Source: a virus
IMG/VR virus record: IMGVR_UViG_3300018048_001459
Span: 1 to 39,220 of that record
Length of the DNA: 39,220 nucleotides
Strand: one strand, 5' to 3'
In this document: one piece after another, positions 18,847-39,220 of the stretch
How positions within the stretch are numbered: the stretch's first letter is position 1
How the letters are laid out: each line of letters begins with the position of its first letter
Made by a program: the position numbers and the translations under genes
The notes under the pieces: generated by a model
Databases searched by the model: none
The model's input: only the letters and a program-made list of their open reading frames with translations
What the model was told of the DNA's origin: nothing

Positions 18847-18860
18847 ACTAGGAGTTTCAT

Positions 18861-20735: not shown

Positions 20736-21217
20736 TGTTTTATGTATATTACGAAAAAGAAAAAAGAACAATAATTTCAATTACTAATGAAAAAAATAAT
20801 TCTTTACAAGATTTTGTAGTAAAACAAGAAGAAGAAATTCTTGATTTTATTACAGGAAATAGAAATACAAACGACTATGTGTTAGATAAAGATTTTAATT
20901 TTACTTTAATAGAAAAGTATAAAAATAAGTTTGAGGTTGATCAGTCTTTTCATAAAATTGAAAAAACTGAAGATGCTGATCTATTAGTATTACATAACAG
21001 TAAATGGAAATTTAAAAAGTCTTCCGAGATAACCGGTAATCTATTTTTTGTAATAACAGAAAAAGATAATCCTAATAAATTAATTAGAGCTATTCATTTT
21101 CCAGCAACAGATTTAGATTGCGAGTTTAATTTTAAATATCCAATTGAAAAAGATATAAACAATATAAGCATATGGATATTACATAAAACATTTGCTAAAT
21201 GTTCGTTGGAGACATAA
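20735..21217 (+). CDS. Hypothetical protein
   Basis: 160 residues, Lys/Glu/Asn rich and strongly AT-biased. I do not recognise a family. The N-terminus (MFYVYYEKEKRTIISITNEK) looks like two beta strands; the middle is charged (KFEVDQSFHKIEKTEDADL), and the end holds IRAIHFPATDLDCEFNF and a hydrophobic NNISIWILHKTF. No Cys motif, no membrane span, no signal peptide. GAGGA nine bases upstream serves as ribosome site inside the preceding gene. The start shares its A with the stop of the gene before, and its own stop shares an A with the next start. Its place between glycosyltransferase-like genes suggests an accessory part in the same pathway; this is inference. Confidence 0.75.
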   Translation: MFYVYYEKEKRTIISITNEKNNSLQDFVVKQEEEILDFITGNRNTNDYVLDKDFNFTLIEKYKNKFEVDQSFHKIEKTEDADLLVLHNSKWKFKKSSEITGNLFFVITEKDNPNKLIRAIHFPATDLDCEFNFKYPIEKDINNISIWILHKTFAKCSLET

Positions 21218-23685: not shown

Positions 23686-24200
23686 TGGAAACTAAAATTA
23701 TTGTAATAGACAATTTTTATGACAATCCTGATAGTGTTAGAGCACTTGCTCTTGAACAAGAATTTAATGTAAAAGGCAACTTTCCAGGTCGTAGAACAAA
23801 AAGTTTTTTATCGCAAGAAGCTAAAGATAAAATTACAAAAATTTTAGGAAACATATCATGGAATGATGAAGATGGAAGTACAGGAAGTTTTCAATATACA
23901 ACTGCATTAGAAAGAAGTTGGATTCATAGAGATGTAAGGGAATGGGCTGGTGTATGTTATCTAACACCTAATGCACCTGTTCAATCTGGAACAATACTGT
24001 ATCAAGATAGAGAAATAAACAGACCTAAAGAAGTTTATGATTTAACAAAATTTAAAAAAGATATAACAATAGAAAATGTGTATAATAGATTAATCCTTTA
24101 CAAGGGTGATCTTTTGCATAAAAGTGATACATACTTTGGCTTAGAAAAAGAAGAAGCAAGACTGTTTCAGGTTTTCTTTTTAGGAGAGTTAAATGCTTGA
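23685..24200 (+). CDS. 2-oxoglutarate/Fe(II) oxygenase-like protein
   Basis: 171 residues. It begins KIIVIDNFYDNPDSVRALAL, the usual opening of small phage oxygenase-like proteins (DUF6445-type). The metal-binding triad of the double-stranded beta-helix oxygenases can be read as H81-R-D83 (SWIHRDVREWAGVCYL), H145 (GDLLHKSDTYFG) and the 2-oxoglutarate-binding R159 (EEARLFQVFFL). All key residues are present, so it is probably active, perhaps as a hydroxylase of a sugar, peptide or small molecule. The TAATG overlap with the preceding methyltransferase/glycosyltransferase fusion and the eight-base overlap with the next gene place it in the same pathway. Family assignment is fairly sure, substrate unknown. 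Confidence 0.82.
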   Translation: METKIIVIDNFYDNPDSVRALALEQEFNVKGNFPGRRTKSFLSQEAKDKITKILGNISWNDEDGSTGSFQYTTALERSWIHRDVREWAGVCYLTPNAPVQSGTILYQDREINRPKEVYDLTKFKKDITIENVYNRLILYKGDLLHKSDTYFGLEKEEARLFQVFFLGELNA

Positions 24201-24414
24201 AAAACTTACACTTAGACAATTACAAACTGAAAGTGCAAAAGCTCTAAGTACTATGGAAGCTACAAACAATAACATATATCAGTTTAATAAAGAAGCACAT
24301 CATAACAGTCATAATTGGTACAAAGTTGTAATACAGTGGTACATAGATGAATACGGAGACTTACCCAGCAAGGTTGGCCCAGGAAAAGATATAAAGTTGG
24401 TAATGGATGTATAG
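24193..24414 (+). CDS. Small protein of unknown function before the first radical SAM gene
   Basis: 73 residues with a strong ribosome site (GGAGAG, five bases before the ATG). It starts with a helical LEKLTLRQLQTESAKALSTM and ends with WYKVVIQWYIDEYGDL and a Gly/Pro/Lys tail. It contains no Cys. It overlaps the preceding oxygenase gene by eight bases and the following radical SAM gene by eight bases (ATGTATAG). Small genes next to radical SAM/SPASM genes are sometimes peptide substrates or recognition proteins, but this one has no obvious leader/core layout, so that idea is weak. Otherwise unrecognised. Confidence 0.75.
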   Translation: MLEKLTLRQLQTESAKALSTMEATNNNIYQFNKEAHHNSHNWYKVVIQWYIDEYGDLPSKVGPGKDIKLVMDV

Positions 24415-25474
24415 ATACGAAGACATAAAAGCAATTCATTTAGAGGTTACACAAAACTGTCAAGCCAGTTGTCCTATGTGTGACCGTAACATGAATGGCG
24501 AAGGAATTAATCCGCATATTAATCTAGATGAACTTACACTAGAAGATTGTAAAAAGATATTCCTTCCTGAGTTTGTACAACAACTTAATACTATGTATAT
24601 GTGTGGCAACCTGGGTGATCCTATTGTTGCTCGAGATACACTTGAAATATTCAAATACTTTAGAGAGCATAATCCCACTATGTGGTTAAGCATGAATACA
24701 AATGGAGGAGCTAAAGATGAAAAATTTTGGACTGAACTTGCTACGGTGTTTGGCCGCAACGGTTGCGTTATTTTTTCTGTGGATGGTCTCGCAGATACCA
24801 ATCACATATATAGACAAAATGTAGTATGGGAAAATGTTGAACGCAACATGCGGACATTTATAAATGCCGGTGGCAGAGCCCGTTGGGACTTTTTAATTTT
24901 TGAACACAATCAACATCAAGTTGATGAAGCTGAAGCACTTGCTAACGAGTGGGGTGTTGAAAAGTTTATGAAAAAGAAAACAGGAAGATTTGTAGATGCA
25001 AAGACTAACAAGAAAGAAACTCACCAAGCCAAAGACCGCAAAGGCAAAAATACAACAGAACTCAAAAAGCCAGACACAAAGTACCAGAACAAAGCTCTTA
25101 CTAAGCAAGAAACTATCTTAAAAAAATACGGCAGTATGGATGCATATTATGACGCTACGCCGGTGATATGTAAAGTAAAGAAAGAAAACAGTTTGTTTAT
25201 TACAGCAGAAGGATTAGCACTACCGTGTTGTTGGACCGCTGGCCGAATGTATAAGTGGTGGCATAAAGATCCTAAAGTAGAACAGATATGGGATTTTATT
25301 CCTAATAAAAATGCACTTGATGCCCGCAACGGCCTTGACAAAGTATTTGATACAGGCATATTTAATAGAATACAAGACAGTTGGAATAAGCCTAGTTGCG
25401 CCGAAGGCAAACTAAAAGTATGTGCTACAAAGTGCGGCGCCGAGTTTGATCCATTTACAGAACAGTTCAAATAA
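24407..25474 (+). CDS. Radical SAM protein with C-terminal SPASM-like domain
   Basis: 355 residues. The radical SAM iron-sulfur motif is C18-QAS-C22-PM-C25 right after a strand (AIHLEVTQN). The usual GGEP motif is replaced by GNLGDP (68-73), a known variant. FSVDGLADTNHIYRQNVVWE (123-142) is typical of SPASM-type enzymes. A Lys-rich linker (residues 187-245) leads to a C-terminal domain with C255, C274-C275, C331, C339 and C343, which can hold an auxiliary cluster. The enzyme would cleave S-adenosylmethionine to start radical chemistry on an unknown peptide, sugar or small molecule. Arg codons are mostly CGN here, unlike several neighbours that favour AGA. No strong ribosome site; coupling to the preceding gene is likely. 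Confidence 0.92.
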   Translation: MYRYEDIKAIHLEVTQNCQASCPMCDRNMNGEGINPHINLDELTLEDCKKIFLPEFVQQLNTMYMCGNLGDPIVARDTLEIFKYFREHNPTMWLSMNTNGGAKDEKFWTELATVFGRNGCVIFSVDGLADTNHIYRQNVVWENVERNMRTFINAGGRARWDFLIFEHNQHQVDEAEALANEWGVEKFMKKKTGRFVDAKTNKKETHQAKDRKGKNTTELKKPDTKYQNKALTKQETILKKYGSMDAYYDATPVICKVKKENSLFITAEGLALPCCWTAGRMYKWWHKDPKVEQIWDFIPNKNALDARNGLDKVFDTGIFNRIQDSWNKPSCAEGKLKVCATKCGAEFDPFTEQFK

Positions 25475-25481
25475 GTACAGT

Positions 25482-26897
25482 ATGACCGATAAACCATTGC
25501 CTTCTGAAACCTTCTGTGCGTTACCTTGGCTACATCTTTCAAGTAGACCTGACGGAAAAATGCGAACATGCTGTACCTCAAATGCAAGTAGTGTACAAGA
25601 TCCCGATTCAAATATAAAAATAGGAGGCGGAGAAGTTGGCATTGTAAAAAATGATGACGGTATTCCTGCTAACTTTAATCATACTACTCTAGAACAAGCA
25701 TGGAACAGTAGTTACATGCGTAATGTTCGTAAAATGATGTTGCGTGGCGAAAAGCCTGCTAGTTGTTTAAAGTGTTACAAAGAAGAAGAAGCAGGTCATC
25801 TTAGTAAACGCAACTGGGAAACAGAATATTGGGGCAATAGATACGACCTGCAGCAGTTGGTAGATGAAACTAAAGAAGACGGTAGTATTCCTCCTAAGAT
25901 ACGCTACATCGACCTTAGAATGGGTACAAAGTGCCAACTAAGTTGTGTTATGTGTAGTCCACATGATAGTTCAGGCTGGGTTAAAGATTGGCAAGCAATT
26001 TACCCTGAAATGCAAAATCAAAAACTGAAAAATACAAGCCAGTGGAAAAACAAAGGTCAAGTACACGGCGCAAGTTACAACTGGCACAAAAACAATCCCA
26101 GATTTTGGGCTGACTTAATGGATCAAATCCCGCATATGTATCAATTATACTTTGCAGGTGGTGAAAGTCTTATTATTGATGAACATTATGAATTACTCGA
26201 AGAATGTATCAAAAGAGGACATGCTAAAAACATAGAACTTCGCTACAATTCAAATGCTGTAGAATGGAGAGACGATTTGTTTGACTTATGGGCAGAATTT
26301 AAGCGTGTGAGATTTCACTATTCGATAGATGCATTAGGTGAACAAAATGATTATATTCGTTATCCATCACAATGGAAACACCAAGAAGAAGTTTTTTGGA
26401 AACTAGACGGCACAAGTGATAATGTAGAGGTTACAACAGCAACTACTATACTTGCACTAAATGTTGCATACATTCCGGAGTTTGTACAATGGAAAGTTGA
26501 TCAAGGATTTCGTAAATTAAACAAATGGCCTCTTGGCGCAGGAGGCATCAACATGCACTTTGCGTATTGGCCACCACAATTAAATGTTAAAGTTCTACCG
26601 CCTGAAATTAAAAAACAAATCACTGAAAAATATGAAAACGAATTTTATCCTTGGATAGAAGAAAACTGGATGCGGTTTACGGGGGTGAATGAAAGTGGCA
26701 TAACACAAGATCAGTTTTTAAATGCTCCATATGGTATAAAGCGTTTTAAAGGTATTATAAACTTCATGAATGCAGAAGACTGGAGTGCAAGATTACCAGA
26801 AACTAGAGAATATCTCAACCTTGTAAACAAGCGTAGAGGATGGGATGATAAATTCTTAAAAGTGTTTCCTATATTTAAGGATATTATAAATGGCTAA
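25482..26897 (+). CDS. Radical SAM protein with N-terminal twitch domain (copy 1)
   Basis: 471 residues from the ATG at 25482. An upstream in-frame start at 25422 would add 20 residues that overlap the preceding gene and precede the conserved FCALPW opening. The N-terminal half-SPASM cluster is C12, C30-C31, C95, C98; the radical SAM motif is C151-QLS-C155-VM-C158, preceded by YIDLRMGTK. The strand-2 motif reads GGES (226-229) rather than GGEP. SIDALGEQNDYIRYPSQW follows, as in the related copies. It is the longest of the seven copies because of inserts around residues 38-66 and 120-137. The domain order matches the known family of radical SAM proteins with an N-terminal twitch domain; substrate unknown. 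Confidence 0.92.
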   Translation: MTDKPLPSETFCALPWLHLSSRPDGKMRTCCTSNASSVQDPDSNIKIGGGEVGIVKNDDGIPANFNHTTLEQAWNSSYMRNVRKMMLRGEKPASCLKCYKEEEAGHLSKRNWETEYWGNRYDLQQLVDETKEDGSIPPKIRYIDLRMGTKCQLSCVMCSPHDSSGWVKDWQAIYPEMQNQKLKNTSQWKNKGQVHGASYNWHKNNPRFWADLMDQIPHMYQLYFAGGESLIIDEHYELLEECIKRGHAKNIELRYNSNAVEWRDDLFDLWAEFKRVRFHYSIDALGEQNDYIRYPSQWKHQEEVFWKLDGTSDNVEVTTATTILALNVAYIPEFVQWKVDQGFRKLNKWPLGAGGINMHFAYWPPQLNVKVLPPEIKKQITEKYENEFYPWIEENWMRFTGVNESGITQDQFLNAPYGIKRFKGIINFMNAEDWSARLPETREYLNLVNKRRGWDDKFLKVFPIFKDIING

Positions 26898-28062
26898 TCC
26901 TGTATGTAATGCTGTTCATCATGCTTTGTGTATCACTGCATACGGCGCAATAAATCCTTGTTGTTCTAGTAGAGACTTTGTACATATTGATGATGTTCCT
27001 AATATCAAAGATTATTTTTATAATAATCAACATCTTGAAAAATCACGTCAAATAGAATTAACAGATAAATGGTTACCTGAATGTAGTGCCTGTAAGAAAA
27101 AACTCGAAAACGGAATAGACAGCCGTAAAGATAAAATGCTTAGGTGGTTCCCCCATACAGATAAACAATTTACAGAGACAAACAAATATGCTATAGTTCA
27201 CATGGATATAAGTTTTGGTAATAGTTGCAACCAAAAATGTATTATGTGTAACAGTAATTTTTCAAGCCAATGGTTAAAAGATGATATTGCAATGGTAGAA
27301 GAAGCACCGTACATTAGAAATAAATCTCTAATGCATTTTAAAAATTGGAGTTTGAGTTACGACCAGTTAGATCAGATTGCTGATTTGGTAACTGAACATA
27401 CAAAAAAAATTGAAATAAAAGGTGGTGAACCTTTATATGATAAAAGATTTGAATATTTTGTTAATAAAGTTATAGAAAAAAATCCTCATGTTTTCTTTAA
27501 TACAAATACAAATGGCTCTCATTTTAATCAAAAAAATATTGATATGTTAAACAACATTCCTAAAATAGGAATAGATATTAGTTTTGATGGCACAGGAAAG
27601 ATTTATGAATGGATAAGAAATAATAGTTGGGAAGAAGCGGAAAAAAATTATATAGAATGTTTAAAACATATCAAGCATTATTTTGTTCTAAACTATACTA
27701 CGATGGTTTATAATGTTGATCATATAGAAAAGTTTTATAATTGGGCAGCTGATTTGTCACAAAAATATGACAAAGAAGTTCCTTTACATTTTTCACAGAT
27801 AGTTACAACTCCTAAATATCTAGATCCTATATATGCAAGTAAGGATAGGATTTTTGAAGGAATGAGACAAATTGAAAAAATAAAAAATGATCCAAGAGGA
27901 TTTGCTAGTGGAAGTATAATGTTCGGAAGAAGTTTAGAAAAATTACATGCATATCTTGAAAATGGTTTGAAACAAGAAGTTGATTATAGTGGTTATACTC
28001 GTACACATGAATACATGACTAAAATTAGAGGTTGGGACATTAAAGACTATGCTGACATGTAA
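26890..28062 (+). CDS. Radical SAM protein with N-terminal twitch domain (copy 2)
   Basis: 390 residues. Twitch cysteines are C6, C24-C25, C65 and C68 (with VCNAVHHALC adding C14); the radical SAM motif is C113-NQK-C117-IM-C120 after VHMDISFGNS, and GGEP is at 178-181. ISFDGTGKIYEWIRNNSWEE corresponds to the SIDxxGxxxxYIR segment of the other copies, and the C-terminus holds the related TPKYLDP. AAGGA nine bases upstream of the ATG and an eight-base overlap with the preceding gene support the start. Arg is mostly AGA, so base use differs from copy 1. Complete and probably active; the substrate is unknown. Confidence 0.92.
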   Translation: MANPVCNAVHHALCITAYGAINPCCSSRDFVHIDDVPNIKDYFYNNQHLEKSRQIELTDKWLPECSACKKKLENGIDSRKDKMLRWFPHTDKQFTETNKYAIVHMDISFGNSCNQKCIMCNSNFSSQWLKDDIAMVEEAPYIRNKSLMHFKNWSLSYDQLDQIADLVTEHTKKIEIKGGEPLYDKRFEYFVNKVIEKNPHVFFNTNTNGSHFNQKNIDMLNNIPKIGIDISFDGTGKIYEWIRNNSWEEAEKNYIECLKHIKHYFVLNYTTMVYNVDHIEKFYNWAADLSQKYDKEVPLHFSQIVTTPKYLDPIYASKDRIFEGMRQIEKIKNDPRGFASGSIMFGRSLEKLHAYLENGLKQEVDYSGYTRTHEYMTKIRGWDIKDYADM

Positions 28063-29206
28063 AGTTCCATGGATAAGCATAACACTAAGTGGCAATGGTG
28101 ATATTAAACCTTGCTGTGTATTTCGTGGCGGCAAATACAGCATACACAAAGGTGATACCTTAGAAAGTGCTTGGAAAAGTATGGATGATCTCAGAGAAGC
28201 ATTTATAAAAGGAGAAAAACCTGATAGTTGTACGCAGTGTTGGCAGAGAGAAGCAGCTCTAGGACACAGCAGAAGAACTTGGTATGACGACAAACTAACA
28301 AATTGGCCAGAAGAATATAATTTATCTCCAGATATGCAACTAAGGCATATGGATTTAAATTTTGGAAATACTTGTAATCTAAAATGCCGTATGTGTGGAA
28401 GTTGGGGAAGCACTGCTTGGTTCAAAGAAGAGCAGAAGTTAATGGAAATTAATCCCAAGTTTGAAAGAGGTATATCAAATCTAAAACCTACAATTATTCC
28501 TGCAAGTTATTGGCAAGATAAAAAGGAAATGTTCAAATATCTCGAACGCATAGATTTCAAGGGTGGCGAGCCTATGATGCAAGACGGAATGTATGACTTT
28601 CTTGAATATCTTGTTGAATGGGGATATGCTCCTAATATTACAATAGCATACACAACTAACGGAACTAAAACTCCAGAGCGTTTAAAAGAACTATGGCCAA
28701 AATTTAAAAAAGTAAAACTTGTTGTTAGTGTAGAAGGAACTGGAAAATTATATGAATATATACGCGGCGGTGATGTACAATCACTAGAACAACTTAAAGA
28801 AAATATACATTGGTTTGACCAATTTGAAAATCTAAATGGTAGTTTCAACAGTGCTATACAAATTTACAATATATTTGATTTAAATAATTTGCTAGAATGG
28901 TTCCGTGATACAGTTAATGCAAGTCGTAAGTGGCATACAGATCCTAATACATTTAAGTTTGACTGTTTGGTAGTAAACCCAAATTATCTAGATATAAACA
29001 TTATGCCCGACAAATTAAAACAAAAAGCAGTAGAAATTATAGAACAAAAAAATTATAGAAGTCTACAAACTATTAAGTCTGCACTTGGTAAAAGTAGTTA
29101 TGATGAACACAAATGGAATCTTTTTATCGACTTTACAAATCAATTAGATATTATGCGTAACACTAGTATAAAAGATGTGGTACCACAACTAAAGGAGTAT
29201 TTTTAA
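28049..29206 (+). CDS. Radical SAM protein with N-terminal twitch domain (copy 3)
   Basis: 385 residues. The start at 28049, 14 bases inside the preceding gene, is required because the first twitch ligand is already C4 (MLTCKVPW). Further twitch cysteines are C22-C23, C61 and C64; the radical SAM motif is C109-NLK-C113-RM-C116 after RHMDLNFGNT, and GGEP is at 172-175. SVEGTGKLYEYIRGGD and NPNYLDINIMPDKLK are the copy-specific forms of shared C-terminal motifs. No clear ribosome site precedes the start, so translation probably depends on the upstream gene. All cluster ligands are present. Confidence 0.92.
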   Translation: MLTCKVPWISITLSGNGDIKPCCVFRGGKYSIHKGDTLESAWKSMDDLREAFIKGEKPDSCTQCWQREAALGHSRRTWYDDKLTNWPEEYNLSPDMQLRHMDLNFGNTCNLKCRMCGSWGSTAWFKEEQKLMEINPKFERGISNLKPTIIPASYWQDKKEMFKYLERIDFKGGEPMMQDGMYDFLEYLVEWGYAPNITIAYTTNGTKTPERLKELWPKFKKVKLVVSVEGTGKLYEYIRGGDVQSLEQLKENIHWFDQFENLNGSFNSAIQIYNIFDLNNLLEWFRDTVNASRKWHTDPNTFKFDCLVVNPNYLDINIMPDKLKQKAVEIIEQKNYRSLQTIKSALGKSSYDEHKWNLFIDFTNQLDIMRNTSIKDVVPQLKEYF

Positions 29207-30417
29207 TGTTTACTTTAACAAATTGCTGTGTATACATGAATAATTATCCTTTTATTAATAACAAAGGTCAATTGCATTTGTGTTGTAAGAATAACAAATA
29301 CACACTTCCTGGAAATATAAAAACTCATAGTTTAAAAGAAATGTTTTTCTCAAAAGAATATCAAGAGCTAAGAGAAACCATGCTTCAAGAAACAAAATTA
29401 GAAGGATGTGATGTTTGCTATTCTCAAGAATCTAGAAATGAAGACAGTTTCAGAATAAGAACATTAACAAAATTAAGAGGTACAAAAAATAATCTACAAC
29501 CATTCCCAGAAATTAAAATCCAAAATTTAGATTTGCGTGTCGGATCTACTTGCAATTTAATGTGTACTATGTGTCATCCAACTGATAGTAGTAAATGGCA
29601 TGCAAATTATGCGTCATTTGCAAAAGAAGTTAGACAAATGGGCGAAAATCATATCAATATAATTACTTCTACAAATAGTCCTAATTTACTTGATTGGGCA
29701 AATTATGATTCAAGTTGGGATAATATATTTTCAAGTATAGATAACGATTTGAATTTTGTTTATATTGCAGGAGGCGAGCCGTTTTATATTAAGAAATTTC
29801 CAGAGTATATGAGTCGGTTACTTGAAAAGGCACCAAACGCAACTATTGAAATAAACACAAACGCCACAAGACTAATAGAACCAAAACATTTACAAAAATT
29901 AAAAGGTAAATTGCAAATGCGTATTAGTATTGATGGATATAAAAGTACAGAAGAATATCAGAGAGCAGGAACAGATTGGGAAAATAAGATCAAAGTAATC
30001 AAACAATATTCTAAGTATTTCAAAATTATGGCATTTGATATTACATTAACAAGTTTAACAATAAGATCTTTACCTAATCTTGTAAAATTTTTAGAAAACA
30101 AATTTCCAGGTGTGCCTCTTTTGTTTAGACCAGTAGTAAACAGAGAAGGACAGCATATTAATAACTTGCCTTCTGAATTAACAATTGAAACATTGGAATT
30201 TTGTAAAACATTGCAAGAAAAAATTTTACAAAAACCCTCTCTGCGATGGCATTATAATAATGTAAATCAAATTGTTAATCTACTTGAACAAGGTTACAAA
30301 GATGAAATACAAGTTTTACAAAGATTAGTAAAATATTGGGACAATCATACAGGAATGAAACTAGCTAATATAGATAAAGAGTTAGGAGACTGGATACATG
30401 CAGACCATAGCAGTTGA
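29206..30417 (+). CDS. Radical SAM protein with N-terminal twitch domain (copy 4)
   Basis: 403 residues, TAATG overlap with the preceding stop and a strong ribosome site (AAAGGAG). Twitch cysteines are C8 (with C7 beside it), C26-C27, C68 and C71; the radical SAM motif is C116-NLM-C120-TM-C123 after NLDLRVGST, and GGEP is at 189-192. RISIDGYKSTEEYQRAGTDW is the diverged counterpart of the SIDxxGxxxxYIR segment. The C-terminal PKYLD-type motif is hard to find here (only FRPVVNREGQHINNLP in that place), so this copy is among the most diverged. Lys-rich and strongly AT-biased, with Arg mostly AGA. Confidence 0.92.
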   Translation: MFTLTNCCVYMNNYPFINNKGQLHLCCKNNKYTLPGNIKTHSLKEMFFSKEYQELRETMLQETKLEGCDVCYSQESRNEDSFRIRTLTKLRGTKNNLQPFPEIKIQNLDLRVGSTCNLMCTMCHPTDSSKWHANYASFAKEVRQMGENHINIITSTNSPNLLDWANYDSSWDNIFSSIDNDLNFVYIAGGEPFYIKKFPEYMSRLLEKAPNATIEINTNATRLIEPKHLQKLKGKLQMRISIDGYKSTEEYQRAGTDWENKIKVIKQYSKYFKIMAFDITLTSLTIRSLPNLVKFLENKFPGVPLLFRPVVNREGQHINNLPSELTIETLEFCKTLQEKILQKPSLRWHYNNVNQIVNLLEQGYKDEIQVLQRLVKYWDNHTGMKLANIDKELGDWIHADHSS

Positions 30418-31147
30418 ACATAGCAGTCCTAAGCAAGCCCAAGTATTTAAAATTGAATGGAATATGGGCAAGAGATGTAATTTTAATTGCAGTTATTGTG
30501 ACGAATTTACACACGATAACTCAAGTAAGCATTTACCCTATGAAGTAGCTAAAAAAACTGTTGATAAAATTTTAGAAAAAACACAAGGCAAGAAAATCAA
30601 AATAAATTTAACCGGTGGAGAACCTACAGTTAATCCGGAAATTGAAAAAATTGTAGATTACATGTATTCAAAAGGTATAGATGTTGGCATCACAACCAAT
30701 GGCAGTCGTAAATTAGATTTCTACCAAAGAATATTGCCTAAACTTGCTAGTTTAATCTTTAGTTATCATATGGAATACCATGGTAGAGAAGTTTTGCCAG
30801 AAAATATTGTTAGTTTGTATAATCTAGCACAACAGCAAGATCATTATATACATGTACATGTGCATATGATGATGCTACCTACACAATTTGATGAAGCAAA
30901 AACAGCCATAGAATATTTTAAAGAAAATAATGTACCTGTAGTAATGCGTAGGATAAGACCAGCATATAAAAAAGACGATACATCTGTATATAATGCAAAC
31001 GGAAATCTAGTTGAAGGTACTATTGCAAGACCGTTCTATGATGGAACAGTAACACTAAAGTTTAAAGATAAAAATGTTGACTATTCTGGAGGCCAAGATT
31101 ATTATAGTGCAGAAGAAATAGCATACTTGGAGACTAATAATGTATAG
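30398..31147 (+). CDS. Radical SAM core protein, first half of a split gene
   Basis: 249 residues. The radical SAM motif is C27-NFN-C31-SY-C34 after FKIEWNMGKR, with LTGGEPTVNPEIEKI (GGEP 73-76) and ITTNGSRKLD. It lacks the N-terminal twitch domain of its neighbours and stops right after the core, without auxiliary cluster cysteines. The next ORF, in the +1 frame and overlapping by eight bases, supplies exactly the missing SPASM-like part; together they give about 370 residues, the length of an intact radical SAM/SPASM protein. AGGAGA eight bases upstream supports the start, which lies 20 bases inside copy 4. Either two subunits, a frameshifted gene, or a sequence error. Confidence 0.9.
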   Translation: MQTIAVEHSSPKQAQVFKIEWNMGKRCNFNCSYCDEFTHDNSSKHLPYEVAKKTVDKILEKTQGKKIKINLTGGEPTVNPEIEKIVDYMYSKGIDVGITTNGSRKLDFYQRILPKLASLIFSYHMEYHGREVLPENIVSLYNLAQQQDHYIHVHVHMMMLPTQFDEAKTAIEYFKENNVPVVMRRIRPAYKKDDTSVYNANGNLVEGTIARPFYDGTVTLKFKDKNVDYSGGQDYYSAEEIAYLETNNV

Positions 31148-31508
31148 ACGATTAGAAAAACAAAACCGTGCAGGTAGTTTTACCAATGTAGCAACTATTA
31201 GAGACACTGATGAAGAAATAATTTGGGTTGAAGAAAATGTAAATGACATTACAGTACGGCAAGAAAACCAATACAAAGGTTGGATGTGTTGGGCAGGACT
31301 TGAAAGTCTTATGATAAATGCTCAGGGAGATGTGTTTACAGCAACATGCAAAGCAAAACGCATTGGCAACATATACGAAGACTTTAACTTGCCAGACGAG
31401 CCAATGACGTGTCCAAAGGATTGGTGTGCGTGTGCTGCTGATCTTAATACAACTAAAGCAAAAGACAAAGAAAGTGCAAAATATTTGAGAGTGAACAATG
31501 AAGAATAG
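31140..31508 (+). CDS. SPASM/twitch-like auxiliary cluster protein, second half of split radical SAM gene
   Basis: 122 residues. The core reads KGWMCWAGLESLMINAQGD and then TCKAKRIGNIYED: a Cys, a GLxxLxINxxGDV strand pair and further cysteines, as in the C-terminal SPASM or twitch domain of radical SAM enzymes. Cysteines are C50, C70, C91, C96 and C98. There is no radical SAM motif in this ORF. GGAGA six bases before the ATG suggests independent initiation. The frame is closed upstream by a TAG at 31119-31121, so fusion with the preceding ORF would need a +1 shift between there and 31147. Likely works with the preceding protein as a two-part enzyme. Confidence 0.85.
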   Translation: MYRRLEKQNRAGSFTNVATIRDTDEEIIWVEENVNDITVRQENQYKGWMCWAGLESLMINAQGDVFTATCKAKRIGNIYEDFNLPDEPMTCPKDWCACAADLNTTKAKDKESAKYLRVNNEE

Positions 31509-32775
31509 AGATAAAGCACTAAAAAGTTCTACATTTTGTTTGTTGCCATTTATACATATGGCCACAAAAACAGACGGTGATATGAAACTATGTTGTCGCA
31601 GTTGGCCTGTTGGCAACATCAAAGACATATCAATGAAAGAACTTTGGAACAGCGACAAGTACAAAGAAGTTAGAAAGCAATTACTAAACAGCGAACGCCC
31701 ACCAGAGTGTGATGCTTGTTGGCGCCACGAAGACATTGGTGTGCGTAGTATGCGTCAACGCTATAACAAAACAAGAACAGAAATGTTTTTACCTGCGGTA
31801 GATAAAATGGCAGATGATTATTCTATGCCTTTTGAAATACCTGTACTTGAAGCTAAACTGAGTAACTTTTGTAATCTTAAATGTAGAATGTGCCACCCAC
31901 TAGACAGTACTAGTTGGAGCAAAGACTGGAAAGAAATTGAGCATCTTATGCAAGATGCCAACGAAAGTACATTTAGAAAAGTAAGAGAATATGACCTAAC
32001 CACTAAACCATATATAAGTGGATGGGAAGACAGCGAAGGTTTTTGGAAAGAGATGGAAGAACTTGCTCCTCACTTTACAAGAATAGAATTTGCTGGAGGC
32101 GAACCTTTAATAGATCCAATACATTATAAAATACTTCATATGTTAAAACCCTATGGAGAAAATATTACAATTAAATACTCAACTAATCTTACAAAGTTAA
32201 ATTATAAAAAAGATGACATACTTGAGTTGTGGAATCATTTTAAAGGAGTACAACTTTTTATCAGCATCGACGGAGTATATGACACTTATAATTATATTAG
32301 ACAACTAGGCGACTATGAAACTGTAAAAGAAAATATTAAAAAAGTTAACCAACATCCTAAAGTAACATACACAGCTGGTGCATGTACACTTCAAATTTAT
32401 AATATATTTGCGTTACCAGAAATAATGGACGGATTTATAGAAGAACTTGATATAGATGTACATACACACAGAGTAAACTATCCTAAATTTTTAGATTGTA
32501 GAGTAATACCTGCAAATTTAAAAGCAGAACTTGTTGAAGAATTTAAAGTTTATATACAAATTATACAATCTAAAACACATCCTAATTGGACCGAGGAAAG
32601 AAAGCGCAACGCAATTCAACATGTTAACGATGCAATCAGTATGTTACAAGGTGGCGACATGCCTAAACAGATTCCTGAATTTATTGAATTCAGTGATAAA
32701 CTTGATGCAAAACAAAAAGTCAAAAAAACTTGGCGAGAACTGTTACCTAAACTAGCAACTGAACTAGATAAATGA
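31498..32775 (+). CDS. Radical SAM protein with N-terminal twitch domain (copy 5)
   Basis: 425 residues. Twitch cysteines are C14, C32-C33, C71 and C74, in the standard opening FCLLPFIHMATKTDGDMKLC; the radical SAM motif is C125-NLK-C129-RM-C132 after EAKLSNF, and GGEP is at 200-203. SIDGVYDTYNYIRQLGDYET and YPKFLDCRVIPANLK are the shared downstream motifs. It ends in a charged helix with KKTWRELLPKLATEL. The start lies 11 bases inside the preceding SPASM gene, and the stop overlaps the next start (ATGA). The CGC and CGT codons for Arg are more frequent here than in copies 2 and 4. All ligands present. Confidence 0.92.
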   Translation: MKNRDKALKSSTFCLLPFIHMATKTDGDMKLCCRSWPVGNIKDISMKELWNSDKYKEVRKQLLNSERPPECDACWRHEDIGVRSMRQRYNKTRTEMFLPAVDKMADDYSMPFEIPVLEAKLSNFCNLKCRMCHPLDSTSWSKDWKEIEHLMQDANESTFRKVREYDLTTKPYISGWEDSEGFWKEMEELAPHFTRIEFAGGEPLIDPIHYKILHMLKPYGENITIKYSTNLTKLNYKKDDILELWNHFKGVQLFISIDGVYDTYNYIRQLGDYETVKENIKKVNQHPKVTYTAGACTLQIYNIFALPEIMDGFIEELDIDVHTHRVNYPKFLDCRVIPANLKAELVEEFKVYIQIIQSKTHPNWTEERKRNAIQHVNDAISMLQGGDMPKQIPEFIEFSDKLDAKQKVKKTWRELLPKLATELDK

Positions 32776-34151
32776 TAACACAAAAAGAACAAATAGATAG
32801 ACTTAAAATTAAGGATTGTTATATCTGTTATGTAGATTCTCACGGAAAAAGATATGCAGATCCTTTTGTTGAACAGGTTTGTAAAAACATAACAGAATAT
32901 AATGTACTAGATTTAGAATTTTTAAAGCAACCTACTGGGGTTGCAACTAATTTACATGATGCACTAGAACAAGCAAAATCTAGTAATTGCAAGTATTTGC
33001 TCTATGTAGAATTAGGCAATATAATTGATTGGTGTGACGGGATAACCAAAGACATACGAAATTGTATAGATGTTAATCCTGATATAAAATTTATAGGACA
33101 TATACTACAGGCAAAAAATGGTAGTTTTTATATTCATCCACAATTTTTTCTTGTAGATGTAAAATGGGCATTAGAAAATAAAATCTCTGTAATAGAGTCT
33201 GAGGATGAAAATAAAAAATGGCTAGGTCCAGTTTTAGAGCGGAGCCAAGAAAATTTTCACAACAATTATACACCGGTGTGGACAAAAGCAACAGGCGTAA
33301 ATAAAAAATTTAGAGGTAAATTTCGAGGCGCAAATATTATAAAAGCACTAGCAGATACTAATTCAAAATTTATGCCATGGCCCGAGCAGGTAAGAAATAA
33401 AAAAACATTTTTATATCCAACTGTTGCTGAAGAATGTGTAAAAAATAAAACTGTGATTGCAAAAAGTATTTCTACTAGCGGAGCATATATTGCAAACACA
33501 GAAGAAATAAACACAGAAAAATATTATAACTTATCAAAAAAATACAACATAAAACAGATATTCACTCCTGCTAGTGGGCTGAATACTTTTTTATTAGGAT
33601 ATTACATGCAAGTGCCTGATGTGGTTGCTTATGATATTTCGTTGTTGGGTTTAAGTTTTGTTCGTATTGTTAGAGACAAATGGGACGGAACAAACTATAA
33701 AGAATTCATAATGGACGAAATTGTAAATCATAACAGTTTACTTCCTATTTATTATGGAACAGAAACTCATTTAGATAATGCAGATCTGCTAGTAAAAAAT
33801 CTTGGCAAAGACTTTGTTGACTGGTGGCAATATAACAAAAGTAGTTTAGCAACTGCTGAAGTTGATGTATTTGATCATCATACTTGGAATAGATTAAAAA
33901 AGAAATCACTAGGTGATTGTCCTACACTTTTTAATCTCAGTAATATATTACATTATGCGCCGACAGCATCTATTCTTAGTTTGCAAAATAGAATTGATAT
34001 TTTTTCGCAGTTTAGGCACTATTGGTACTCAAGTATTACAAACCCAGAAAATTTAATATTGCAAGGTATGAATCCTATAGATGCAAGTAGGTTATCATCT
34101 GTCACAGAATTAAATAATTATCAAAGCAAAAGATTTCCTTGGAATGTGTAA
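32772..34151 (+). CDS. Glycosyltransferase-like/methyltransferase-like two-domain protein
   Basis: 459 residues. The N-terminal 240 residues (KDCYICYVDSHGKRYADPFV; SSNCKYLLYVELGNIID) look like a GT-A type domain in which the expected acidic triad is replaced by an ELGN segment. From about residue 255, IKQIFTPASGLNTFLLGYYM and VVAYDISLLGLSFVR suggest a Rossmann-type SAM-binding domain: Gly-containing loop, then an acidic residue at the end of strand 2. The C-terminus has FNLSNILHYAPTASILSLQ. The layout parallels the larger fusion at 21217, so the two may be related or may do parallel steps. Both assignments rest on pattern only. ATGA overlap with the preceding radical SAM gene. Confidence 0.8.
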   Translation: MITQKEQIDRLKIKDCYICYVDSHGKRYADPFVEQVCKNITEYNVLDLEFLKQPTGVATNLHDALEQAKSSNCKYLLYVELGNIIDWCDGITKDIRNCIDVNPDIKFIGHILQAKNGSFYIHPQFFLVDVKWALENKISVIESEDENKKWLGPVLERSQENFHNNYTPVWTKATGVNKKFRGKFRGANIIKALADTNSKFMPWPEQVRNKKTFLYPTVAEECVKNKTVIAKSISTSGAYIANTEEINTEKYYNLSKKYNIKQIFTPASGLNTFLLGYYMQVPDVVAYDISLLGLSFVRIVRDKWDGTNYKEFIMDEIVNHNSLLPIYYGTETHLDNADLLVKNLGKDFVDWWQYNKSSLATAEVDVFDHHTWNRLKKKSLGDCPTLFNLSNILHYAPTASILSLQNRIDIFSQFRHYWYSSITNPENLILQGMNPIDASRLSSVTELNNYQSKRFPWNV

Positions 34152-34852
34152 TGAAAAAAGAAATTGTAAAACTTTTTAAACGCAACAGGAAAACAGTGCA
34201 TTACCCTCAGGTAAAACCGTTACCTGACACAATAAATGTAAATGAATTATCTAAATGGATTATGCACGAAAGCAATCTTGCTACATTGCTTTTAGATATC
34301 GAAATACCCTATAAAGAAATGTTTCAAGAAGCAATGGCACAAGAACATTTGTTTGTCAAACACAGAGGAGATGTTTCTCCAGGATGGAGCAGTATGGCAA
34401 TACATGGAACAGCAGTAGATCATACACAACCTAAAGAATATTATTTCAAGGAAAACGCTCCTGACTACAGTTGGACTGAACTAGCAGAACTGTGTCCTGT
34501 TACTAAACAATGGATCAAAAGTTTAGAATTTGATAGATTAGATCGTGTAAGATTTATGAAACTTGATCCAGGAGGATATATAGATCCGCATAGAGATACA
34601 GATGTGCAAGGAATACATGCTTGGAATGTTGCATTAAACAATCCGCAAGGGCATGTTTTTGTTATGGACGGGTATGGTTATGTACCATGGTCAGAAGGAC
34701 AAGTTAGAGGAATAGATGTAAGTAAATATCATAGTGTAGTTAATAATGGTACAGTGCCAAGGATACATATGATTATACACGGAGCATTTGGAAACAAATT
34801 TAGAAAAATAATAGTAGACAGTTATAAAAAAATATATGAAGAACAAAACTGA
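34151..34852 (+). CDS. Aspartyl/asparaginyl beta-hydroxylase-like Fe(II)/2-oxoglutarate oxygenase
   Basis: 233 residues from the ATG at 34151, which forms a TAATG overlap with the preceding stop; an in-frame TTG twelve bases upstream is less likely. The catalytic pattern is clear: RVRFMKLDPGGYIDPHRDTD gives H147-x-D149, then YHSVVNNGTVPRIHMIIHG gives H194 and the 2-oxoglutarate-binding R204. AWNVALNNPQGHVF fits the core strands of this family. The enzyme would hydroxylate an unknown peptide, sugar or lipid. It is unlike the shorter oxygenase-like protein at 23685 in length and motif spacing, so the operon carries two separate oxygenases. It overlaps the next gene by 17 bases. Confidence 0.9.
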   Translation: MKKEIVKLFKRNRKTVHYPQVKPLPDTINVNELSKWIMHESNLATLLLDIEIPYKEMFQEAMAQEHLFVKHRGDVSPGWSSMAIHGTAVDHTQPKEYYFKENAPDYSWTELAELCPVTKQWIKSLEFDRLDRVRFMKLDPGGYIDPHRDTDVQGIHAWNVALNNPQGHVFVMDGYGYVPWSEGQVRGIDVSKYHSVVNNGTVPRIHMIIHGAFGNKFRKIIVDSYKKIYEEQN

Positions 34853-36323
34853 TATAGTGCTTATAAGTACACCTGTTATGGAAACACGGGTACCAGCACC
34901 TGCAATTTATTATTTGAAAGGTGCTCTAAATCCTCACGGGTTTAGTGCAAGATGTTTTGACTTAGTTAGAGACAGCGAAGATCATTTTGGCAAAGAAGAC
35001 AATAAAAAAATAAACAGTTTTTTACTTGCTGATTGGCATGCAGGAATACACGCCGACCCAGAAGATAAAGATATTTACAATTTAATACTTGACTATTATA
35101 GAGATTATGTTTTAGAAAAGATTGCACCTTTAGACCCTAAATGGGTAGGCATAAGTGTGTTTAGCCAAAATAGTCAAAAATCAACACACATACTTTGTAG
35201 AGTTTTAAGAGAAGTTTTACCTGAATCAAAAATTGTTCTAGGAGGAACAGGTCTAGGAGTTGCACTAGGAGGAGAATTAACTTTTGGACAAAATATTATA
35301 GAACAAAATTTTGCAGATTGTTACATTTCAGGTGAAGGAGAAATTGCACTAGTAGAATTATTAAAAGGCAATTACAATTATCCTGGTATAAACAGTCCTA
35401 TGTACAAACAAATTGATGATATAGACAATTTGCCATTTCCAGATTATTCAGATTATCAACAAGATTATGGTGATATAAAAAAGATCACATTAACAGGGTC
35501 TAGAGGATGTGTGCGTAGATGCAGCTTTTGTGACATAGGTGCATTTTGGAAAAAGTTTAGATTTCGCAGCGGAGCAAATATTGCTGAAGAAATTATAAGA
35601 AATAAAAAACTATATGGTTCTAAAACTCATTTCTTTTCAGATAGTTTAATAAACGGAAGTATGAAAGCATTTAGAGATTTTTGTGAAGTAATGGCAGATT
35701 ATCATGCTAAGAATAATAATAAGCAGGATCGGATAAGATGGGGAGGACAATTTATAATTAGAAGTGAAAGACAAAGTCCAGCAGAGGACTATGACTTAAT
35801 GGCTAGAGCAGGTATGAGTTGGGCTAGTATAGGTATTGAAAGTGCTAGTGAACTAGTACGCAATCATATGGACAAACAGTTTACTAACGAAGATATGTAT
35901 TTTAGTATAGATCAATTGATCAAAAACAATATAAGTGTTACTGCAATGTTTATTGTAGGATATCCTACGGAGACAGAAAAAGAATTTCAAGAAAATATTA
36001 AATGGTTAGAATATTATGCTGATAGAAATAGCACTACAATACCAGAGGACAACAGAGGCAAGATTGTTGATATTAATTTAGGACAAACACTGGGCGTATT
36101 ACCTAATAGTCCTTTAGCAGATATGGATGTATACACTGGGCAGGATACTTGGGTGTCTAAAACTGTACCGGGTCTTGATTTTGCAGAAAGAGTCCGTAGA
36201 AGAAAAGAATTATCTCGTGTGGCTAACAAATTAGGATACACTGTGCGTTGGGATGAAAAACAATTACATTTTCTAAATAGAAAATTAGAACGCTGGGAAA
36301 GAAAAGGCAGACCTGTAAAATGA
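34836..36323 (+). CDS. Radical SAM protein with B12-binding-like N-terminal domain
   Basis: 495 residues. Residues 1-195 form a B12-binding-like Rossmann domain (DIVLISTPVMETRVPAPAIY; KWVGISVFSQNSQKS; KIVLGGTGLGVALGG; CYISGEGEIALVEL), followed by the linker IDNLPFPDYSDY. The lower-ligand motif DxHxxG of cobalamin domains is not visible, so cobalamin, if bound, would be bound base-on or without His. The radical SAM motif is C225-VRR-C229-SF-C232, with GIESASELVRNHMDKQ and MFIVGYPTETEKEFQE downstream as in the class B methylase/MiaB-like core. Such enzymes do methylations or ring rearrangements. It overlaps both neighbours and lacks a strong ribosome site. Confidence 0.93.
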   Translation: MKNKTDIVLISTPVMETRVPAPAIYYLKGALNPHGFSARCFDLVRDSEDHFGKEDNKKINSFLLADWHAGIHADPEDKDIYNLILDYYRDYVLEKIAPLDPKWVGISVFSQNSQKSTHILCRVLREVLPESKIVLGGTGLGVALGGELTFGQNIIEQNFADCYISGEGEIALVELLKGNYNYPGINSPMYKQIDDIDNLPFPDYSDYQQDYGDIKKITLTGSRGCVRRCSFCDIGAFWKKFRFRSGANIAEEIIRNKKLYGSKTHFFSDSLINGSMKAFRDFCEVMADYHAKNNNKQDRIRWGGQFIIRSERQSPAEDYDLMARAGMSWASIGIESASELVRNHMDKQFTNEDMYFSIDQLIKNNISVTAMFIVGYPTETEKEFQENIKWLEYYADRNSTTIPEDNRGKIVDINLGQTLGVLPNSPLADMDVYTGQDTWVSKTVPGLDFAERVRRRKELSRVANKLGYTVRWDEKQLHFLNRKLERWERKGRPVK

Positions 36324-36973
36324 GTTTAGAAATTTGGAAAAACAGATATAGTGTAAAAAAATTCTCAGAGCAGGATAATTTTGCAGATGAAATAAATTAT
36401 CTTAAACAAGTTATAGAATATATTCCTATACAAAGAGGAATCAATTCACATTTTTGGTTGTTGTTATCAAATAAAAATGAAAATGAAAGACAGTTTAAAG
36501 ATTTTTTATTTAGAAATGTATTTGCATTGCACGACGGATCAGAACATATGTACCCTATACTAAGCGCACCTTATGTTTTTTTATCTATAATTAATCGCGA
36601 ATATTATGACCAGTTCGAATGTGTAGCAAATGTTGGAGTGCATGCTGGTGTACTTTTATCGGAAGGTTTACGATTGGGATTAGATGTATCTACCTTAAAT
36701 TGTAGAGACATGATAGCTAACAGTCCCAATTCTACTAGTTTAAGAAAACAGTTTGATAGATATGTAAAAGATTGTTTATCTACTAAACTTAAAAAGTATA
36801 AAAAAGAAATAAACAATCCAAAGTTTACTACAAGTCCTAGTATTGCAGTTTGTTTTGGTAAAGGATTGCCTCTGGAAAAACACATGTTTGAAATGGTAGA
36901 CGATAAACCTATAAAAGTAGGACAAAAACAAAAGAAAAAGTTTCCTAATATAGAGATAATAGATGACAAGTAA
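36320..36973 (+). CDS. Nitroreductase-like flavoprotein
   Basis: 217 residues. The N-terminal NRYSVKKF (8-15) is the FMN-phosphate-contacting RRSxRxF-type motif of the nitroreductase family. HFWLLLSNKNENERQF, SAPYVFLSI and NVGVHAGVLLSEGLRLGLDV (104-123) are the counterparts of the usual 'AP..i', 'aaAa.Nl.LaA..lGLG' and C-terminal strand segments; IAVCFGKG near 178 matches the last strand. The C-terminal 30 residues are Lys-rich and extend beyond the fold. The homology is weak but the order of motifs is right. In this operon it might supply electrons or reduce or oxidise an intermediate; that is inference. ATGA overlap with the preceding gene. Confidence 0.8.
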   Translation: MSLEIWKNRYSVKKFSEQDNFADEINYLKQVIEYIPIQRGINSHFWLLLSNKNENERQFKDFLFRNVFALHDGSEHMYPILSAPYVFLSIINREYYDQFECVANVGVHAGVLLSEGLRLGLDVSTLNCRDMIANSPNSTSLRKQFDRYVKDCLSTKLKKYKKEINNPKFTTSPSIAVCFGKGLPLEKHMFEMVDDKPIKVGQKQKKKFPNIEIIDDK

Positions 36974-38120
36974 AACTTTTTGTATATTGCCATGGATGCA
37001 TCTTGCTACAAATGCAAGCGGAAATCTCCGTGTGTGTTGTAATTCAACTCCTGGTCAAAACTTTATTACAAAAGAAGACGGTACACCTTACAAATTGCAC
37101 AAAGACAATTTACAAGAAGCATGGAACAGTGAAGTTTATAATACGATACGAAAACAAATGTTGGAAGGCGAAAGGCCTGAAATGTGTACCCGTTGTTTCC
37201 GCGAAGAAGATGCAGGTGTAAAAAGTGCAAGGCAAGCCTGGAATGAAAAATGGAAAAAAGACGACAACTACACAGTAGATGCACCTTTTGATATTAAATA
37301 TGTGGACTTGCGTTTGGGCAATTTGTGCAATCTAAAATGTAGAATGTGCAATCCCTATGCAAGTAATCAATGGGTTAAAGAGTGGGCACTGGTTGAAGAT
37401 GCACTCGAGCCAAGTGAATATGAACGCCTTAGTAAAATGAGTTGGCCCGAACATGAAAAAACTTGGGAAAATCTTTTTAGCATAGCAGACACTGTTGATG
37501 AAATATATTTGACAGGTGGTGAACCTACTATAATACAAGAACAGCATAGACTACTTGATTACTTTATAGATAAGGGCACTGCTTATAAAATAAAATTAAA
37601 ATACAATACCAATCTTACCAATGTCCCTAAACATTTAATTGACAAATGGACTAAGTTTAAAAGAGTACAGTTAAATTGCAGTATAGATGCTGTGGGAGAA
37701 TTGGATAGATATATCCGGTATCCTAGCAATTGGAACAAGATACAGGAAAATTTTGACATTGTTCGTAAACTAGAAAATGTTTATATTGAAATACATTGCA
37801 CAGTGCAAATGTATAATATATTAAGACTGCATGAATTGTTAGATTGGGCAGAACCTTACGGACATAAAATTTATCTAAATATCTTAAATCATCCTGAATA
37901 TTTAAACATTAGAGTTTTGAATAATGATCTAAAACAAAAAGTCAAAAGCACACTAAACAATTACACACATATACCAAAAGTGCAAGGTGTGATTGATTAT
38001 ATGATGTCTGAAGATTGGAGCGAACGATATCCACAGTTTGTAGAATACACAAATGCTTTAGATAATTCTCGTGAACAGGATCTAAAACAAATTGTTCCGG
38101 AGTTGTTGTATGAACAATAA
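36963..38120 (+). CDS. Radical SAM protein with N-terminal twitch domain (copy 6)
   Basis: 385 residues. Twitch cysteines are C7, C25-C26, C75 and C78, in the opening TFCILPWMHLATNASGNLRV; the radical SAM motif is C122-NLK-C126-RM-C129 after YVDLRLGNL, and GGEP is at 185-188. SIDAVGELDRYIRYPSNWNK is nearly identical to the same segment of copy 1 (SIDALGEQNDYIRYPSQWKH), so copies 1 and 6 are close relatives although eight genes lie between them. HPEYLNIRVLNNDLK is the shared C-terminal motif. The start lies 11 bases inside the nitroreductase-like gene, and the stop overlaps the next start by 11 bases. Confidence 0.93.
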   Translation: MTSKTFCILPWMHLATNASGNLRVCCNSTPGQNFITKEDGTPYKLHKDNLQEAWNSEVYNTIRKQMLEGERPEMCTRCFREEDAGVKSARQAWNEKWKKDDNYTVDAPFDIKYVDLRLGNLCNLKCRMCNPYASNQWVKEWALVEDALEPSEYERLSKMSWPEHEKTWENLFSIADTVDEIYLTGGEPTIIQEQHRLLDYFIDKGTAYKIKLKYNTNLTNVPKHLIDKWTKFKRVQLNCSIDAVGELDRYIRYPSNWNKIQENFDIVRKLENVYIEIHCTVQMYNILRLHELLDWAEPYGHKIYLNILNHPEYLNIRVLNNDLKQKVKSTLNNYTHIPKVQGVIDYMMSEDWSERYPQFVEYTNALDNSREQDLKQIVPELLYEQ

Positions 38121-39220
38121 AACCTATTGTCCGATGCCCTTTGTTACTTTATCAGTTAATCCTGGTAATTATATTTCCCGCTGTATGATGAGCATGACAT
38201 CAATGGGAGATATATCAACTAAAACATATCAAAATAAAAAATTTAAAAAATTAAGAACAGATATGCTAGGTGGTGTTTGGGATCAAGAAGGATGTAGTAG
38301 TTGTTTTATTAAAGAACAAAGCGGATTAACTAGCCAGCGCCAAAAATGGTTAAACAATGAAGAAAAATATCTTGGCAAACACGGTATATATGAAAATAAT
38401 TTAGATATAAAAACTAACAATATACATCATATCTATCTTAATTTTAGTAACATATGTAATTTTAAATGTAGAATGTGTGGTCCGCATTTTAGTAATGCAT
38501 GGATTTCAGATTCAAAAAAATTAAACAAACAAGGTCTAATCGCAGGTAATGAAGAAATTCCTCCCAAGAGTCAAGTTGATATAGATAAATTCTTTTCTGA
38601 ATTTGGTACTAGATTAAATCACTTAACACAGATATGGATTACTGGTGGCGAGCCTTTTATAGACGATAGTATTTTTAATTTTTTTAAAAAATTAGAAAAA
38701 CATACAGATGTAAAAAGTATAAAGGTTAGTATAAACACTAATGGTAGTAAATTAGACATACACAGATTAAACGAACTTTCTCATTTAAAAAATTTAACAT
38801 TAAACTTTAGTGTAGATGCAACAGGTAGTTTGTACACTTATATGAGAGGTTATCAATATTCGTTTGATGAAATACAAGAAAAAATAAATTTATGTATAGA
38901 ACTACAAAAAACACAAAGTAATTTAAATATTGCTGTAAATGGAACATATCAAATATACAATGTACTAAATTTAAAAGATTTTTGGGAATGGGGCAAAACA
39001 ATAGCAGATAGTAAATCTGGAAATTGGATAGAATATAGAACACTGTTAGGCCCGAAACATCTGCAAGCACGACATGCTCCTGTAGATGTAAAAATGCAAG
39101 CAATAAATTTTGCTAAAGAATTAATTAAAAAAGATACATATTACAGTCATAATCATTATCTAGAACAAGTTATAAAAGAATGCAATCAAAGTAGCGAAGT
39201 TGATCAAATTAATAAATTTT
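38110..39220 (+). CDS. Radical SAM protein with N-terminal twitch domain (copy 7), 3' end outside window
   Basis: 370 codons are visible and the frame is open to the window end. The protein starts MNNKTYCPMPFVTLSVNPGN. Twitch cysteines are C7, C25, C62 and C65; the second Cys of the usual CC pair is Met26. The radical SAM motif is C116-NFK-C120-RM-C123 after HIYLNFSNI, and GGEP is at 179-182. SVDATGSLYTYMRGYQYSFD and LGPKHLQARHAPVDVK match the shared downstream motifs, so little of the C-terminus is missing. It starts 11 bases inside copy 6. The C-x17-C spacing is kept, so the auxiliary cluster is probably intact. Confidence 0.92.
   Translation, partial: MNNKTYCPMPFVTLSVNPGNYISRCMMSMTSMGDISTKTYQNKKFKKLRTDMLGGVWDQEGCSSCFIKEQSGLTSQRQKWLNNEEKYLGKHGIYENNLDIKTNNIHHIYLNFSNICNFKCRMCGPHFSNAWISDSKKLNKQGLIAGNEEIPPKSQVDIDKFFSEFGTRLNHLTQIWITGGEPFIDDSIFNFFKKLEKHTDVKSIKVSINTNGSKLDIHRLNELSHLKNLTLNFSVDATGSLYTYMRGYQYSFDEIQEKINLCIELQKTQSNLNIAVNGTYQIYNVLNLKDFWEWGKTIADSKSGNWIEYRTLLGPKHLQARHAPVDVKMQAINFAKELIKKDTYYSHNHYLEQVIKECNQSSEVDQINKF

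Follow-up and report, generated by a model that had tools for sequence, protein, structure and literature searches.

A conserved island of radical SAM and glycosyltransferase-like genes in T4-like phages, with counterparts in Bdellovibrionota

T4-like phages with many radical S-adenosylmethionine (rSAM) genes, and rSAM cassettes within phage host-recognition islands, have already been reported. The 183-kb T4-like marine virus genome TARA_ERS488813_N000010 carries 12 rSAM genes (Nishimura 2017, PMC5332604), and the host recognition cluster of pelagimyophages is a variable island by the tail-fibre genes that holds glycosyltransferases and, in some members, rSAM cassettes, which differ between close relatives (Zaragoza-Solas 2020, PMC7029224). 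Here we analyze an rSAM-rich operon in the IMG/VR virus record IMGVR_UViG_3300018048_001459, a stretch of 39,220 bases (hereafter the window). A preliminary description, made from the letters alone, had treated twitch-type rSAM genes in marine phages as known only singly, a view at odds with the passage on the marine genome cited above, and had the operon begin at 24407; its actual start is 18861. From there to the contig end every long gene lies on the plus strand, as do all features given below, mostly with overlaps of a few bases. The operon belongs to a T4-like myovirus, and the locus is a conserved one rather than a fortuitous cluster of genes. Its gene context suggests a role in glycan tailoring; we favour the host surface as the target, and virion proteins are the chief alternative.

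Ten rSAM proteins are encoded across eleven open reading frames (ORFs), as the preliminary description had read them. PF04055 was detected at ten places, eight above the cut-off and two (24443, 26139) slightly under it, and the CxxxCxxC motif is intact in all ten. Seven ORFs match NF033640 (N_Twi_rSAM) over their full length at 182–422 bits (cut-off 170 bits), which bears out their assignment as N-terminal twitch enzymes: T1 (25482..26897, 421.8 bits), T2 (26890..28062, 182.4 bits), T3 (28049..29206, 310.5 bits), T4 (29206..30417, 205.7 bits), T5 (31498..32775, 356.3 bits), T6 (36963..38120, 408.9 bits), and T7 (38110..39219, 224.7 bits). T7 is truncated where the contig ends, so the array may continue beyond it. 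N-terminal C7, C25, C75, and C78 (T6 numbering) are invariant in all seven together with the CxxxCxxC triad, the cysteine set expected of a putative auxiliary Fe-S cluster. The protein described as having a C-terminal SPASM-like domain, rS1 (24407..25474), is 46–83% identical to phage and Bdellovibrionota orthologues, and its four C-terminal cysteines (C274, C275, C339, C343) are invariant in 15 of these relatives. Another enzyme is split, as proposed earlier, into rS_core (30398..31147; PF04055 58.3 bits) and a SPASM piece (31140..31508; weak SPASM and NF038073 matches), which adjoin in 11/13 loci. We rejected a frameshift or sequencing error as the cause, since the same split recurs in independent contigs and on Bdellovibrionota chromosomes. 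For the class-B-like protein B12rS (34836..36323), the rSAM core stands (PF04055 67 bits) and a B12-binding-like domain is seen, which stays under its cut-off (29.4 vs 32.1 bits), shows no visible DxHxxG motif, and reaches no named equivalog; a viral scan with this single sequence matched three contigs. Outside the window, fused double rSAM proteins of ~850–886 aa with two rSAM domains per ORF occur at G004 C1:20182-22849, G009 C1:154926-156737, and L112:13468-16095.

The rSAM genes are interleaved with genes for glycosyltransferase-like, methyltransferase-like, and oxygenase-like proteins. GT1 (19189..19983), whose DxD (D98, D100) is invariant among 14 aligned relatives, adjoins the glycosyltransferase-like GT2 (19980..20735; supported by phrog_1903 at 35.8 bits and by alignment) in 51/51 loci. 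Glycosyltransferase-like and methyltransferase-like partners had been named in the preliminary description; in GTMT (21199..23685), alignment, AlphaFold2, and Foldseek point to two GT-A domains and a class I methyltransferase domain. The DxD of the second glycosyltransferase domain is invariant; the model (pLDDT 82.7, pTM 0.44) retrieves, with low TM-scores, GT-A enzymes built of two domains, among them chondroitin polymerase K4CP, and its methyltransferase domain retrieves NAS/COMT-type methyltransferases. Searches returned no PDB sequence relatives for GTMT or its glycosyltransferase domain, and no Pfam glycosyltransferase family above cut-off for the GT-A candidates. Nicotianamine synthase and CntL are among the best Foldseek methyltransferase matches of the GTMT C-terminal domain, a weak hint from the model that it might transfer aminobutyrate instead of methyl. 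The protein u459 (32772..34151; AlphaFold2 pLDDT 74.5) combines a GT-A-like N-terminal half lacking DxD with a Rossmann/methyltransferase-like C-terminal half; the best Foldseek matches of the former, with low TM-scores, include the PBCV-1 capsid glycosyltransferase, COLGALT1, and LH3, and a viral scan with the single u459 sequence gave no matches.

Both proteins previously described as Fe(II) oxygenase-like held up. AspOx (34151..34852) matches PF05118 at 46.3 bits, its HxD...H iron triad and Arg are invariant in 16 sequences, and its PDB profile matches are hydroxylases, so that its predicted identity as a 2-oxoglutarate (2OG)-Fe(II) oxygenase of the aspartyl/asparaginyl beta-hydroxylase fold is well supported. 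The second (23685..24200) matches DUF6445 (38.7 bits) and phrog_1644 (113.8 bits) and reads IHRD...H; given the DUF6445 match and the HxD...H pattern, the phrog_1644 label 'minor coat protein' may be wrong. The nitroreductase-like assignment of NTR (36320..36973), which adjoins T5 in 5/6 loci, is weakly supported (profile E 0.0098 for a reductase and 0.045 for a nitroreductase, no Pfam match). A conserved 73-aa protein, u73 (24193..24414; 13 relatives aligned), adjoins MTd in 27/36 loci.

Searching IMG/VR with an alignment of the seven N_Twi proteins matched at least 600 stretches, of which the best 80 loci were examined. Among the matches listed, whole records contained 3–23 rSAM matches, with the maximum in a 242-kb record. 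Three contigs (L158, L159, and L160) keep the near-complete order T1-T2-T3-T4-rS_core|SPASM-NTR-T5-u459-AspOx-B12rS-T6-T7 at ~40–81% identity (69–75% for rS_core, 75–76% for B12rS), with u459 and AspOx missing and T4 displaced in L160. To avoid circularity, the glycosyltransferase domain alone served as an rSAM-free bait: 69 of 79 viral loci recovered this way, and 36 of the 38 longer than 15 kb, had at least one rSAM gene within ~10 kb. These loci share a backbone of tail fibres, v5, v6, GT1, GT2, u160, GT-GT-MT, u73, rS1, and T1, followed by variable extra rSAM genes. T1 adjoins rS1 in 60/105 loci and u459 adjoins AspOx in 25/34 (shuffled maximum 9); the adjacencies u459+AspOx, u73+MTd, T1+rS1, and SPASM+rS_core all exceeded every one of 200 shuffles. 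The bait and the shuffles together led us to reject chance clustering. Independent shuffling with no shared partners, which the preliminary description had named as telling against a single pathway, was not what we found, given synteny in three contigs and adjacency above shuffles. Its proposal of a dedicated pathway thus finds support in synteny, adjacency, and the glycosyltransferase bait; one fixed ten-enzyme pathway fits less well than a conserved core with variable extra rSAM genes. Three loci (L091, L104, L109) from metagenome-assembled genomes (MAGs) labelled Gammaproteobacteria, Neisseriaceae, and Rickettsiales also carry the phage island and cluster with viral T1, and are therefore probably mis-binned viral contigs. 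In the isolate Vibrio phage K566, which has four N_Twi-type rSAM genes, one of them (L089:19439-20701) is annotated as a hypothetical protein.

Upstream of the island lie a giant structural ORF (11.6 kb) and tail-fibre/collar-like ORFs; matches to the putative vrlC region are cyanophages and jumbo myophages, and the capsid protein of one related contig is 67–68% identical to those of PA5oct-type and Sinorhizobium phages. The gene v5 (17848..18798), which separates the tail-fibre genes from the island, probably encodes a virion protein; it has no PHROG match and keeps a constant place before GT1 in the glycosyltransferase-bait loci. The first gene of the operon is the small v6 (18861..19196), with an ORF of 101–133 aa in the equivalent place of related loci, and an ORF of similar size to u160 (20735..21217) recurs between GT2 and GTMT. 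A perfect sigma-70 promoter, TTGACA-17-TATAAT (18811..18839, 12/12 match), lies in the v5–v6 gap (18799–18860) and heads the island operon. A T4-type late promoter motif, TATAAATA (17816..17823), stands upstream of v5; it occurs once in the 39-kb window against 8.55 expected from shuffling, and a motif of this type directly precedes the v5-like gene in 11 of 39 related loci. Across these 39 loci, 18 of the 47 sigma-70 sites scoring at least 11/12 fall in the 51-nt v5–v6 gap (binomial P ~1e-33). Of the 39 gaps, 19 hold a sigma-70-type site, 10 the late-type ATAAATAA, and the other 10 neither of the two; both placements far exceed chance. Promoter class also tracks island content: T1 is present in 12/19 sigma-70 loci vs 0/10 late-promoter loci. 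The promoter sequences suggest that the core module is expressed early. Early timing as a universal rule was rejected, the late motif occupying the equivalent gap in about a quarter of loci.

In cellular genome contigs the N_Twi family was found chiefly in Bdellovibrionota MAGs. Whole-genome samples contained a match in 30/114 genomes of the phylum Bdellovibrionota vs 3/120 of the phylum of G034 (taken as Pseudomonadota), and in 28/112 vs 2/119 once already-known genomes were excluded (Fisher P 4.5e-8). One Bdellovibrionota genome had up to 33 family matches, and chromosomal arrays occur at G025 C1:745000-775000 (L253, L254), G026 C192, G027 C47 (L258, L259), G029 C15 (L260, L261), and G030 C7 (L256, L257). 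On these chromosomes rS1, rS_core, T1, and the glycosyltransferase/methyltransferase genes co-occur repeatedly; orthologues of T1 score 718–819 bits, and those of rS1 are 46–49% identical to the window protein. In the T1 tree the viral clade of the window is nested in a grade of Bdellovibrionota sequences, the outgroups forming long branches. Genes for O-antigen or surface polysaccharide stand beside the core module in some cases; surface-polysaccharide genes are its neighbours in G075 and G027, as are UDP-Glc dehydrogenase and GT2-family genes in G121. Neighbours of cellular core modules also include UDP-GlcNAc 2-epimerase, an initiating sugar transferase, Polysacc_synt_2, GT1/GT2-family transferases, and an AT3 acyltransferase. 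Other cellular N_Twi genes are near RmlC/RmlD, DegT, and a carbamoyltransferase. A Pfam scan of ten Bdellovibrionota cluster neighbours gave an AMP-binding enzyme as its one match. A provirus origin of these clusters is unlikely, since their flanks read as ordinary chromosomal genes: close to two clusters Pfam confirmed ribosomal L11 and HSP90, and rpoD- and dnaG-like neighbours were noted elsewhere by eye.

We hypothesize that the island encodes a cytoplasmic glycan-tailoring pathway whose product most likely enters the host surface polysaccharide (O-antigen or capsule), a proposal to which we assign an even chance. The recurrence of this gene set in many uncultured phages and in surface-sugar clusters of Bdellovibrio-like bacteria suggests that the predicted glycan-remodelling pathway is real. 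The DxD glycosyltransferases GT1 and GTMT and the glycosyltransferase-like GT2 and u459 would add or hold sugars. Each N-twitch enzyme, using a SAM-cleaving 4Fe-4S cluster and probably a second, auxiliary one, would make radical changes to the sugar or its carrier, for instance epimerization, dehydration, dehydrogenation, or C-methylation. Hydroxylation would fall to the 2OG oxygenases and capping to the methyltransferases, and every step would be cytosolic, in keeping with the lack of predicted membrane spans among island proteins. Made from a host-RNA-polymerase promoter, the glycan may enter the host's surface polysaccharide soon after infection, and the changed receptor could shut out other phages or free the progeny. 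The core GT-GT-MT-u73-rS1-T1 would be kept between phages while extra rSAM genes are exchanged, a pattern that diversifying pressure on the glycan structure would be expected to produce. A broader proposal, which we regard as rather doubtful, is that uncultured T4-like phages and Bdellovibrionota share an undescribed glycan-biosynthesis family in which N-twitch rSAM arrays write radical-made sugar modifications, and that the core came to the phages from Bdellovibrionota-like hosts and serves them early in infection to rewrite the host surface. Several observations weigh against the host-glycan proposal. TM-scores to GT-A enzymes are low (≤0.26 by query), u459 is without DxD, and GT-like folds can serve otherwise; tail-fibre genes are the immediate neighbours of the island; the window lacks genes for a flippase, a polymerase, or nucleotide-sugar synthesis; GT2-family genes were not significantly enriched among near cellular neighbours (8/111 vs ≤2/111, Fisher P 0.10); and promoter class and phage lineage are confounded, with several of the loci truncated.

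The preliminary description had left virions, DNA, and the host surface as possible targets; the cellular neighbourhoods favour surface glycans, and nothing points to DNA. Virion modification, in which the enzymes would glycosylate, hydroxylate, and radically modify tail fibres or v5 and so tune adsorption, is the rival we take most seriously while judging it unlikely. The operon directly follows tail-fibre genes in most loci, no membrane span is predicted in any island protein, so that all enzymes look soluble, and the late-type motif replaces the sigma-70 site in the v5–v6 gap of 10/39 loci. SPASM and twitch rSAM enzymes often act on peptides, and the best structural matches of u459, which a hydroxylase adjoins, include a capsid glycosyltransferase and a hydroxylysine galactosyltransferase. 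These matches are, however, generic GT-A ones, the core genes go with the early-type promoter, and the Bdellovibrionota modules are flanked by housekeeping and sometimes polysaccharide genes, among which we recognized no structural gene of a phage. The enzymes might instead make a soluble small molecule or a peptide resembling ribosomally synthesized and post-translationally modified peptides (RiPPs), with u73 as precursor or carrier. The dense mix of tailoring enzymes, the small, conserved u73, which many phages keep between MTd and rS1, and asparagine synthase, aminotransferases, and carbamoyltransferase near some cellular copies would suit such a product. We nevertheless consider it improbable: no island rSAM protein reached any RiPP maturase cut-off (sub-cut-off matches only), no precursor-like ORF was identified, and there is no export gene. 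Alignment of its relatives did not support u73 as a RiPP precursor, as it is evenly conserved without a variable core, and it was detected in just 14 of the viral and cellular loci examined.

That no single pathway exists, and that rSAM genes pile up independently of one another, as morons of a hypervariable host-recognition island, would agree with the variation of accessory rSAM genes between our contigs and of rSAM cassettes between close pelagimyophages (PMC7029224). It seems a slim prospect beside the conserved order of the core and of rS_core-SPASM-T5-u459-AspOx, on either strand and far above shuffles. Enzymes of the rSAM, glycosyltransferase, and 2OG types do serve in some DNA modification systems of phages. 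Hypermodification of DNA is nonetheless very improbable here, as the island lies with tail genes and away from replication genes, no nucleotide-base modification family was matched, and the cellular copies stand in surface-sugar regions.

Carrying up to 23 rSAM genes, as one virus record does among the matches listed, commits a virus to an unusual amount of oxygen-sensitive chemistry. Should surface glycans be what the pathway tailors, its rSAM enzymes would form a large uncharacterized set that modifies carbohydrates. This set would be widespread among aquatic phages not yet cultured and would have its cellular counterpart in bacteria of the predatory type, with the Pelagibacter phage Mosig EXVC030M (MT647606) on HTCC1062 as a partial model in culture. 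NF033640, a family named for its domain and not for a function, which seven window proteins match in full, would gain a testable function and partners; we found no characterized member in the open-licence papers searched. Nor did we find in them the conserved core, its counterpart in Bdellovibrionota, or the promoter pattern (subscription papers and preprints lay outside the scope).

Like the window, TARA_ERS488813_N000010 has many rSAM genes in a T4-like virus. They were interpreted there as Fe-S cluster proteins with a link to Fe-S assembly genes; the text about that genome, in contrast to what we describe for the window, mentions no operon, partner genes, or glycan link (PMC5332604). Compared with the pelagimyophage host recognition cluster (vrlC to gp14), the window island is dominated by rSAM genes and has a defined conserved core, and the contig stops before any gp14. 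A comparable island lies beside the tail fibres of the cultured phage Mosig. It has three genes annotated as MoaA-like, of which two encode CxxxCxxC, together with AspOx, with nitroreductase, methyltransferase, and carbamoyltransferase genes, and with one for an ArnB-like aminotransferase. Mosig gave no match to T1, T6, or the glycosyltransferase domain, however, and its rSAM relatives are just 22–24% identical to the window proteins. An altered host surface glycan, the outcome we propose for the island, is also that of gtr-type serotype conversion; the latter works through a membrane flippase and a membrane glycosyltransferase, whereas the island, without membrane-span candidates, would rely on rSAM chemistry instead.

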